DNA of 32,953 bases from Spirochaetota bacterium (GTDB taxonomy: Bacteria; Spirochaetota; Spirochaetia; Treponematales; UBA12059). A model generated the notes under the pieces. That model ran no database searches, was not told the origin of the DNA, and worked only from the letters and a program-made list of their open reading frames with translations. The first letter of the stretch is position 1. Each line of letters begins with the position of its first letter. Positions 29,579-32,953 of the stretch are shown here, one piece after another. A program made the position numbers and the translations under genes. The stretch covers positions 1 through 32,953 of the forward strand of contig JAKPPT010000018.1 of the NCBI GenBank assembly GCA_029547205.1, in the 5' to 3' direction.

Positions 29579-29635
29579 CAAAGCAGCAGATATCAGCTAC
29601 AATACACCACACTAGCTGTTAATACTTAGTGTTTT

Positions 29636-29709
29636 TGGAGAATAGGGGAGTCGAACCCCCGACCTATAGATTGCGAACCTATCGCTCTAGCCAACTGAGC
29701 TAATTCCCC
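29636..29709 (-). tRNA. tRNA-Ala (anticodon CGC)
   Basis: On the minus strand the 74-nt sequence folds into a complete cloverleaf. The acceptor stem is GGGGAAT/ATTCTCC, with the D-arm GCTCAGTTGGCTAGAGC. The anticodon arm ATAGG-TTCGCAA-TCTAT places CGC at 34-36. The T-arm has GTTCGACTC. The acceptor contains the G3-U70 pair that identifies alanine tRNAs, and A73 is the discriminator, which supports Ala reading GCG. CCA is not encoded. It lies 201 bp from the end of intI. Confidence 0.93.
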
Positions 29710-29721
29710 ACAGTAGGCAAC

Positions 29722-29910: not shown

Positions 29911-31299
29911 CTAGAGTTTTTCCAAAGGACTCCGAACTCCGCGTTTATTTCTGACGGCGACGTGGGTATAGATCATCGTAGTCCGAACATTGGAATGACC
30001 AAGCAGATCCTGAATGGTGCGGATGTCATAACCGTCTTCGAGTAGATGGGTGGCAAAGCTGTGCCTGAGCGTGTGGGCCGATGCCGGCTTTGTTATACCA
30101 GCCCTGCGAACCGCGTTGTGTATCTGTTTTTGCACGACAGAGTGATGGATGTGCCAGAGAGCTTGCTTGCCAGTCGCAGGATTTATGCAGGGACCTCGCG
30201 CAGGAAAGATCCAATACCAACTCCATTCGCTTGCAAGCCCGGGATACTTGCGCTCGAGTGCTTCAGGCAAGGATACACCAGGCATAGCCTCTTTTCGTTC
30301 CTGTTCCCACCGTATATGCAGCTCATTGAAATATACTTCAAGCTCGCGATGTAACGATACAGGCAGTACCGTGAATCTGTCTTTTCCTCCCTTACCAGAA
30401 CGAACCTCTACCGATTCTTCCCGTATGTTGATGTCCTTTATGCGCAGGTTGAGACACTCATCGAGCCGGAGCCCGCAGCCGTACATTAGCGAAGCCATAA
30501 GCCTAAAAGGCTGGTGCAGGTTCTTCAAGAGCGTGGAAACTTCCTCCCTGTTTAGTACGACAGGCAGACGCAGCCGCTTCTTTGCACGGACAACCGAAGC
30601 GAGTCCTTCGATCTCGATATGAAGGATGTGTTTGTATAGCATCATGATTGCGTTGAGCGCTAATTCCTGCGTCGCTGCGCTCACATGTTGCCTGACTGCA
30701 AGGTGAGAGAGGTAACCACGGAGATCGTTTGCGGTAAGTGAGCGGACATCCATAGTTCGAGTAGCAGTCGGGTCGGATTCCTCAGTCTCTCTGCGCGATT
30801 CACACCACGAAAGAAAACGTCGTATCCAACCGAGATATGTTTTTTGCGTACGCAGAGTATAATGTTTTACCGTGAGGTAATCCCGTGCCTCCCGCATAAG
30901 TGACCCGGAATAAACAGTCCATGGTGATATTCCTGCCGGAAGTCTAACCGGTTTATTTCCTTCAGGTACAACCACTTCAGAGGCAGCGCTAACAGGATCG
31001 CTTCCTGTGGGTTCTGACATACGTTGCTCGACAGTCTTTTCTGGCTTAGTTTTATTTAAACAATCCATGAAAGCGAAAAATGTGCGGACTGCGTTTCGGG
31101 CTTTATCAGCGACAAAGCTTCCTTTACGCTCCTCTACAGCGTTAACAAAGCAAGTGATGGAGCGTTCTCGATCACTACACCACCATGGAAACCGTCTCGT
31201 GAAATTATCAATCCAAACGAGCGCCCATTTTGTATCGATTTCTGAAAACCTGCAGGTAGTTTTCAAAAAAATTTCAAGCTTGCCGATATCAAAAACCAT
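29911..31299 (-). CDS. intI: Integron integrase IntI with N-terminal extension
   Basis: A 462-residue tyrosine recombinase that inserts cassettes by attI x attC recombination. Catalytic residues are present: Arg278 (GLRLDECLNLRIKDI), Lys303/306 (GKGGKDRF), His409-x2-Arg412 (HTLRHSFATH), His435 (LLGHSNVRTT) and Tyr444. The segment ALERKYPGLASEWSWYWIFP is the IntI-specific insertion that separates integron integrases from XerC/D. The core starts near residue 130. The preceding 120 or so residues are extra compared with the usual 320-340, and include a helical block (about 20-85) like a second core-binding domain. Start 31299 has GGAGG five bases upstream, better than ATGs at 31302 and 31311. 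The gene looks more G+C-rich than its neighbours. It diverges from the cassettes, the standard orientation. Confidence 0.93.
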   Translation of the reverse strand: MVFDIGKLEIFLKTTCRFSEIDTKWALVWIDNFTRRFPWWCSDRERSITCFVNAVEERKGSFVADKARNAVRTFFAFMDCLNKTKPEKTVEQRMSEPTGSDPVSAASEVVVPEGNKPVRLPAGISPWTVYSGSLMREARDYLTVKHYTLRTQKTYLGWIRRFLSWCESRRETEESDPTATRTMDVRSLTANDLRGYLSHLAVRQHVSAATQELALNAIMMLYKHILHIEIEGLASVVRAKKRLRLPVVLNREEVSTLLKNLHQPFRLMASLMYGCGLRLDECLNLRIKDINIREESVEVRSGKGGKDRFTVLPVSLHRELEVYFNELHIRWEQERKEAMPGVSLPEALERKYPGLASEWSWYWIFPARGPCINPATGKQALWHIHHSVVQKQIHNAVRRAGITKPASAHTLRHSFATHLLEDGYDIRTIQDLLGHSNVRTTMIYTHVAVRNKRGVRSPLEKL

Positions 31300-31591
31300 C
31301 ATGACCTCCATACTAAAAACTTACGTTGAAAGCCAAATAATCGCATGCACAACAAATGGTGGAATGAAAATGTTCACATTATCTTTCTTCGAGGAGTTGA
31401 ATATCTTAAATGTAGTCGGTTTCCACGTGCGGCATAGGATACTTCCTGCTGCGCTTTCATGGACTACGAGCTATGCTGCTGAATGTCGCTACTTTCATTG
31501 CAAGATATCCTCATTGCCCAACTCCACGGCAAATTTCCTCTTCGCTTAAACCCACGAAATTGACTATCGAGGTTTTCTAGGGTAGAATATG
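31300..31591 (+). other. attI recombination region
   Basis: The gene-free interval between intI and the first cassette. The core site is GTTAGAT at 31591-31597, with crossover between G31591 and T31592. Identification rests on position, on the GTTRRRY-like core and on the match to the attC at 32698-32822: ATCTAAC there is the exact reverse complement of GTTAGAT. The cassette promoter occupies its right end. Further integrase-binding sites could not be defined. Confidence 0.8.
31560..31588 (+). promoter_or_regulatory. Integron cassette promoter (Pc) abutting the attI crossover
   Basis: TTGACT (31560-31565), 17-nt spacer, TAGAAT (31583-31588). The -10 box ends three bases before the crossover point. 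The predicted start of transcription, near 31595, is therefore within the first bases of whichever cassette is inserted. Confidence 0.75.
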
Positions 31592-32816
31592 TTAGATGGA
31601 CGCCTACGGCGCAAAAAGGAGAAATGTATGAAAAAAGCAATAGTTGTAATATCTATTACATTATTATTGTTTTCCTGTGATTTAGTAAATTATGTAAATA
31701 AAGGAAATTTCAAAATTATAAATTCTTACTATAGGAGATCAAATTACAAATCAGTATTAATAAGTAAAGATACTGAAATAAATAATGGAGATGTAGTAAA
31801 TTTTGATGTAATAACAAAGTACGATGCTATAGATATTACAAAGATAGATTTTTACTGGACTTATGGAATTGACGATCCTGATTTATGGAATTACGCACCT
31901 AGCCAAAGTCCTGAATATCAGAAAGTAGGTACAGATATAGAACTTACCGGAGAATTCATATTCAACACCTCGTTTACAGGAGTAAACTGGATAACATTAA
32001 AAGGTATAGCATTTAAAAAAGATGGTAGTGAAGTAGTAGATAAAATATGGTTTAATATTGATAATCTAGGTCCTGATATTGATATAGAACCTCGAGACTT
32101 ATCAGTAATTAAGAACCTAAACGAAATTAAAGTTCGTATTGCAGATGGTGGATCAGAAGTAGGTGTGGATTATAATAGGACATCAATTGTTTTGAAAAAT
32201 TCAAGTAATGAATTACTCAGTTTAAAGCAGCCAACAAATTCTAATGGAACATTTATTACAGAACCAATTAGAAGTTTATCTGATGGAGAATACCAAGTTA
32301 CTGTTATAGCGTATGATAACATTGGAAATCCTAATAGTAAATCCACAACATTTACCAAAATTACTTCTCCAAAAAATCCTGCAAATATATTTCTTAAAAT
32401 ACCTATATGGAATGGAGAAGAAGTAAAAGGAAAAATATTTCTTGAATATGAATCCGATAAACCATTATCAAAGGTAATATTAGATTGTTCTTGTTATGGA
32501 GGTGAGTATTATCCAAATGTTTTTGGAAGCTTTCCAAGTATTGATGTTAATAATCCTTCTCAAACTGGAATAATTGAAATTGATACTTCATTTACTGGAA
32601 AAAATTATGCTTACTTTAGATTGTTTTCTTTAGATATTGATGGATTATCTTCAATTAGTAATATAGTTTGGTGTAATATAAATAATATTTATTAAACATC
32701 TAACAACCGCTTCAACCTGATAAAAACTTTGTCACGGTTTGTGCGGTCGCTTCGCTCTTTACGCACAAACCGCGCCAAGCGCGAGTACGCGCCCGTTTTT
32801 ACAGGTTAAGCCAATG
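31592..32816 (+). mobile_element. First integron gene cassette (complete)
   Basis: The 1,225-bp unit runs from the base after the attI crossover to the G at 32816 in GTTAGCC of its attC. In the excised circle G32816 joins TTAGAT to give GTTAGAT, which is exactly complementary to ATCTAAC at the left end of the same attC. This self-consistency fixes both ends. It carries one lipoprotein gene and is visibly more AT-rich than the integrase gene. Confidence 0.85.
31628..32695 (+). CDS. Cassette-encoded lipoprotein with Ig-like repeats
   Basis: A 355-residue protein beginning MKKAIVVISITLLLFSCDLV, a lipoprotein signal peptide with the lipobox LFSC (Cys17). The mature part is beta-rich, with two or three spaced segments such as TGVNWITLKGIAFKKDGSEV, DGEYQVTVIAYDNIGNPN and TGKNYAYFRLFSLDIDG. 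These resemble bacterial Ig/fibronectin-like domains. It should be anchored in a membrane, possibly exposed on the surface. The start at 31628 has AAAGGAG upstream; the in-frame ATG at 31589 spans the recombination site and is not used. Expression probably comes from Pc. I cannot assign a ligand or role; no enzyme motif is seen. The stop lies two bases before the attC. Confidence 0.8.
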   Translation: MKKAIVVISITLLLFSCDLVNYVNKGNFKIINSYYRRSNYKSVLISKDTEINNGDVVNFDVITKYDAIDITKIDFYWTYGIDDPDLWNYAPSQSPEYQKVGTDIELTGEFIFNTSFTGVNWITLKGIAFKKDGSEVVDKIWFNIDNLGPDIDIEPRDLSVIKNLNEIKVRIADGGSEVGVDYNRTSIVLKNSSNELLSLKQPTNSNGTFITEPIRSLSDGEYQVTVIAYDNIGNPNSKSTTFTKITSPKNPANIFLKIPIWNGEEVKGKIFLEYESDKPLSKVILDCSCYGGEYYPNVFGSFPSIDVNNPSQTGIIEIDTSFTGKNYAYFRLFSLDIDGLSSISNIVWCNINNIY

Positions 32817-32822
32817 TTAGCC
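32698..32822 (+). repeat. attC site of the first cassette
   Basis: It begins ATCTAAC (R'') and ends GTTAGCC (R'). Inner arms AACCTGATAAAAAC and GTTTTTACAGGTT pair except for one extra A on the left strand, like the extrahelical base that orients IntI on folded attC. The centre folds into a further stem, CGGTTTGTGCG with CGCACAAACCG. Length of about 125 bp and this shape are typical of long attC sites. Confidence 0.88.
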
Positions 32823-32953
32823 AGACCCTTCGGGCCGAGGAAAAAAATGAAATTAGAAGGATTCGGAATTTTTGTTAATGACATGTCAATGATGATTAAA
32901 TTCTATAGAGATGTATTGGGATTTAATATTAAGGAAGATGAAAATACATCAAA
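32817..32953 (+). mobile_element. Start of the second integron cassette (partial)
   Basis: It begins at TTAGCC, just after the crossover at 32816/32817. It continues past the window edge, so more cassettes are likely to follow. From the rule seen in the first cassette, its own attC should start with GGCTAAC. Confidence 0.8.
32847..32953 (+). CDS. VOC/glyoxalase-superfamily protein (partial, cassette-encoded)
   Basis: The start ATG at 32847 has GAGG seven bases upstream. The first 35 residues run MKLEGFGIFVNDMSMMIKFY and then RDVLGFNIKEDENT. This is the classic first beta-strand and helix of a vicinal-oxygen-chelate domain (F.V.D...-..FY...LGF). Members include glyoxalase I, fosfomycin or bleomycin resistance proteins and many unknowns; such genes are common in integron cassettes. 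The metal ligands lie beyond the window, so no function can be given. Confidence 0.8.
   Translation, partial: MKLEGFGIFVNDMSMMIKFYRDVLGFNIKEDENTS

Follow-up and report, generated by a model that had tools for sequence, protein, structure and literature searches.

Does transcription of an integron cassette array begin in the integron platform, or can it begin in the inserted cassette itself? This question is raised by a locus at the right end of the window, the 33 kb stretch of DNA analysed here, which is the entire contig (G000:C39) of a 2.65 Mb draft genome. There, an intI gene is followed by a 280-bp gap, a first cassette with its attC and part of a second one. The original prediction placed a cassette promoter (Pc) so close to the attI crossover that transcripts would start in cassette DNA. 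If true, each cassette insertion would exchange the transcript from its very first nucleotides, the platform would contribute no constant leader, and a single handful of base pairs would have to serve both recombinase and RNA polymerase. The features of the locus, in window coordinates, are as follows.

29911-31311, minus strand: intI, integron integrase of 466 residues with an N-terminal extension of ~135 residues
31560-31565, plus strand: -35 hexamer of Pc, TTGACT
31583-31588, plus strand: -10 hexamer of Pc, TAGAAT, whose GAAT is also attI core sequence
31582-31595, plus strand: attI core, GTAGAATATG^TTAG, crossover 31591/31592
31594-31597, plus strand: predicted +1 (most likely A31594 or G31595), within the cassette TTAG core, placed from the position of the -10
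31601-31611, plus strand: 5' hairpin of cassette 1, CGCC-TAC-GGCG, from cassette nucleotide 10
31616-31621, plus strand: Shine-Dalgarno (SD) sequence of cassette 1, AAGGAG
31628-32695, plus strand: cassette 1 ORF, putative lipoprotein of 355 residues
32700-32821, plus strand: attC of cassette 1, crossover 32816/32817
32817-32953, plus strand: beginning of cassette 2 (first 137 bp, up to the contig end), with leader hairpin GACCCTTCGGGC

The intI product is a tyrosine recombinase with the integron-specific region; it matches TIGR02249 with an E-value of 6e-110, above the cut-off, and clusters with integron integrases in a quick tree. An attI with a G^TT crossover adjoins the gene, and the first cassette carries one complete attC of ~122 bp, the remaining array lying beyond the contig end. 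The position of the crossover is supported by the adjacent integrase, by a GAAT-ATG^TTAG core common to relatives (GTAGAATATG^TT is identical in 7 of them) and by the end of the cassette 1 attC, AATG^TTAG, which matches the attI core. Our crossover calling differed by at most 1 nt from the published attI R of T. brennaborense (PMC3607928), genome G082 being taken as this species by its matching coordinates. The assemblies of two relatives (L019 and L021) break off precisely at the attI crossover (TTAG/TTAGA); this would be expected with first cassettes that vary within the population, and may be an indirect trace of recombination activity at attI. The cassette 1 ORF shows a marginal match to the Ig-like family Big_13 (E 1e-5, slightly under the curated cut-off). 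An in-frame ATG at 31589, which the attI core creates, was not accepted as the start codon, as it has no SD sequence and lies upstream of the predicted transcript.

The letters and positions of the promoter given in the original prediction are correct, namely the two hexamers separated by 17 bp and an ATG that leads from the -10 to the crossover, and the -10 indeed ends 3 nt before the crossover. The pair agrees with the consensus at 10 of 12 positions and scores 11.2 bits in a position-weight matrix scan, and no other sigma70-like site on the plus strand between intI and the first cassette comes close. In 1000 dinucleotide shuffles of the gap (292 nt), a score of at least 11.2 bits anywhere had P = 0.003, and an equally good site whose -10 ended at most 13 nt upstream of the crossover was never obtained (0/1000). 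Across the whole window, sites scoring this high occur twice on the plus strand and not at all on the minus strand. A class 1-like Pc inside intI was not found on the plus strand of its first 1 kb (best site, 6.9 bits). Thus, sigma70-type hexamers at a 16-18 bp spacing are present above chance, and judging by these letters it is very likely that a sigma70-type Pc is present at this attI.

As the -10 ends 3 nt before the crossover, a normal start would fall at about 31594-31597, in cassette DNA, which begins at 31592; the predicted placement of +1 holds for any discriminator of at least 3 nt. The initiating bases would come from the near-invariant attC core (TT comes first in 150 of 151 distinct cassettes, and A third in 148), so that the start sequence would vary little from one cassette to another. 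In the window, the leader would measure about 33 nt and comprise the hairpin, the SD sequence and the ATG at 31628.

These elements suggest the following arrangement. The junction would be where attI meets Pc in a chromosomal integron of canonical (divergent) layout, carried by a member of the Treponema order, with the -35 in the outer attI region, the -10 over the attI core, and GAAT common to promoter and recombination site. Initiation would be expected 6-9 nt past the -10, within the TTAG brought by the attC core of nearly every cassette, and the first cassette would provide the entire 5' leader, here a small hairpin and an SD sequence. Since the -10 overlaps the core, occupancy of the core by IntI would be expected to compete with open-complex formation, and the mutual exclusion of IntI and RNA polymerase in the original prediction is a reasonable inference from this overlap. 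Sequence and comparison establish the hexamers, their spacing, the crossover, the fixed offset of each clade and the shared core; promoter activity and the start site are inferred from them. That a genuine sigma70 Pc is present, with its -10 lying across the attI core, we consider probable.

A search of 294 genomes from this order recovered IntI in 67, and attI sites were compared over 53 called crossovers within the order. In a quick tree of 112 integrases, the window and nine relatives, the only ones found, form one clade (clade A, 10 loci; SH-aLRT 99), remote from the second set, to which the T. denticola-type integrons belong. The layouts also differ, since clade A is divergent (in the window, intI lies on the minus and the cassettes on the plus strand) and the second set is of the reversed type; the reverse layout is absent from the window, which belongs to a separate, well-supported clade. 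Together with the window, loci L018-L026 make up this canonical (divergent) clade of the Treponema order, distinct from the reversed T. denticola type. The reversed type was described earlier in Treponema, with a single gain inferred (PMC3607928), and clade A does not figure in that account; in the accessible Treponema literature only the reversed type is described. Clade A looks like a separate integron lineage, with a single origin followed by rearrangement as the formal alternative.

Within clade A, the arrangement TAGAAT-ATG^TT, with the -10 ending 3 nt from the crossover, is found in 8 of the 10 loci. In the other two, L024 and L025, the entire promoter (TTGC(G/A)A-N17-TATAAT) sits 7 bp further upstream, the -10 ends 10 nt from the crossover and the start is predicted in attI. 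This paired shift, which a motif belonging to attI alone would not demand, sets promoter and recombination site apart and provides good evidence for a promoter. The -10 reads TA(G/T)AAT in all ten loci, and a TTG -35 stands at exactly 17 bp in four (the window, L023, L024 and L025); the per-position chance product for these four is ~9e-9, a value backed by fewer independent cases than four as L024 and L025 are closely related. A spacing of 17 between the hexamers is the rule in nearly all attI loci compared.

The -35 itself is less constant. TTGACT becomes TTGAAT in one clade A relative, and in one genus of the clade (6 loci) it is replaced by TTTTCT (3 of 6 consensus positions), and TTTTC recurs 13 bp further along. 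In this genus the site is hardly above shuffles (p 0.05-0.4) and is not top-scoring in 2 of the 6 loci; the case for a promoter there is weak, and the TTTTC repeats may be integrase sites. In the T. denticola-type clade the promoter lies 20 nt from the crossover in 13/13 loci and mostly reads TTGNAA-N17-TATAAT, and in the gut/rumen-type group a promoter-like site is found at about 80-84 nt in most loci. The expectation that close relatives would keep both the hexamer pair and its distance from the crossover was thus borne out in part: TAGAAT and the 3-nt offset persist in 8/10 clade A loci, but TTGACT does not persist throughout, and the offset is 10 nt in two loci and 20 or ~82 nt in the other groups. 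The predicted start inside the cassette is confined to part of one lineage. The series of 3, 10, 20 and ~82 nt constitutes a natural experiment on how closely a promoter can approach a recombination site, and also on whether cassette expression is shut off when IntI binds.

Part of the conserved -10 belongs to attI in any case. The other groups, in which the promoter lies at a different place or is unclear, carry GAA just 5' of the crossover in 13/13, 13/14 and 8/16 of their sites, and 36 of 120 attC junctions contain GAAT. GAAT is hence a recombination core sequence, and the conservation of TAGAAT is not purely promoter evidence. One could therefore read TAGAAT as attI core only, an IntI binding or spacer element, with the true Pc elsewhere or with cassettes using promoters of their own. 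Such a reading accounts for GAAT by attI alone and for the recurrence of GAA(T), in an identical position, in attI sites that have their best promoter 20 or ~82 nt away; it also fits two gut-type sites that hold TAGAAT without a convincing -35, and L043, which gave the one plausible attI obtained among sister integrons outside clade A, with the candidate sequence GAGGGAATATG^TTA. What it leaves aside is the TA in front of GAAT together with a TTG -35 at exactly 17 bp, the joint displacement of both hexamers in L024 and L025, the lack of any other Pc candidate of comparable score in the window, and the absence of TAGAAT from the attC junctions (0/120). We regard it as rather unlikely; from the sequences compared, a promoter appears to be overlaid on the core GAAT by the preceding TA and the TTG 17 bp upstream.

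The promoter could also be real and its dominant start lie outside the cassette, for example if initiation were atypically placed or a further promoter acted upstream. The promoters of clade A are predictions from sequence, and in L024 and L025 the start is itself predicted in attI; in the window, by contrast, a start in attI would need a discriminator shorter than 3 nt, and the next-best upstream site reaches just 5.6 bits, which leaves this alternative with very little probability. Beyond the favoured reading of a sigma70 Pc with its -10 across the attI core, a more far-reaching version would have the -10 equal to the recombination core, integrase occupancy and transcription mutually exclusive, and cassettes built with a 5' hairpin leader module of their own, so that a hairpin, free in sequence but always 9-10 nt from the crossover, would form the start of the transcript. 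This we put forward as a speculative possibility, somewhat doubtful as a whole. The loci with a 10-nt offset and the T. denticola type, in which the -10 lies outside the core, offer a ready comparison for exclusion.

The hairpin is widespread among cassettes of the order. A stem of at least 4 Watson-Crick pairs starting 9-11 nt after the crossover is present in 106 of 151 distinct cassettes (shuffle mean 9, maximum 16), and one of at least 5 pairs in 78 (shuffle 2.3); the same test applied 100 nt into the cassette gave 12/118. This positional stem test was employed for scoring because the minimum-free-energy z-score is poor for short hairpins. The sequence is variable, with 31 different 5' arms among cassettes of the order (L012-L176); the hairpin is often preceded by GGAC or TGAC, and the loop ACT is recurrent in the gut/rumen type. 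G-T (12) and A-C (11) mismatches are equally rare in the stems, giving no sign that only the RNA strand matters. The hairpin occurs at all promoter distances and in internal cassettes, and is thus not tied to the 3-nt arrangement. A search of genome contigs with a single protein gave no match; one with the alignment found integrons in many phyla with almost no attC in reach, so that the hairpin test outside the spirochaetes rests on few sites: 18 candidates, two of them with a stem, of which one is a spirochaete record at the expected offset. No description of the cassette 5' hairpin was found in the accessible parts of the Treponema integron literature, and no Rfam family matched at attI or the cassette leaders. 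Matches to TD-2 (Rfam) in L034 lie on the opposite side of intI from attI.

The original prediction had set the locus against class 1 integrons. The contrast is fair: class 1 resembles the window in having divergent intI and cassettes and a single promoter for the array, but its main Pc lies in intI1 and its transcripts include the whole attI1 with ORF-11 (PMC8876359). A Pc inside attI, on the other hand, has precedents in class 2, V. cholerae and T. denticola. The class 2 integron has its cassette promoter (Pc2A/Pc2B) inside attI2 (PMC8876359), with Pc2A 192 bp upstream of the first cassette gene and away from the crossover. The V. cholerae superintegron is likewise chromosomal, with Pc within the attI region, but its mRNA starts 65 bp upstream of attI (PMC3948777), and Pc overlaps Pint there. 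A further close parallel is the T. denticola reverse integron, with a sigma70-like Pc near the crossover, a GAA..TG^TTA core and a similar cassette 5' hairpin. It differs in that intI points toward attI and is co-directional with the cassettes, and in that the -10 ends 20 nt from the crossover (13/13), off the core, so that the leader begins in attI. In a published scheme, a putative start is marked at the 3' end of the T. denticola attI (PMC7691350), and a reporter in E. coli showed that a Pc fragment of this integron type is active (PMC6557892). The open-access literature yielded no report of a -10 abutting the crossover, nor of transcription that starts within a cassette.

In three T. denticola-type attI sites (L126, L153 and L034), the predicted transcript carries a GAGGAAGG-like SD sequence followed by an ATG at the crossover, which recalls ORF-11 of class 1 attI1. 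A search for further cassettes elsewhere in the window genome found none except a decayed integron fragment (L160, G000:C130:305000-312000), where a remnant of intI lies near 307187 and a truncated attC is located near 307978. The N-terminal extension of the window IntI gave no Pfam match. This extension (30900-31311, ~135 residues) precedes the SAM-like domain and is kept in relatives, where matches begin at residues 5-15 with ~50% identity. A tRNA-Ala (CGC) gene lies on the minus strand at 29635-29710, ~200 bp beyond the 3' end of intI.
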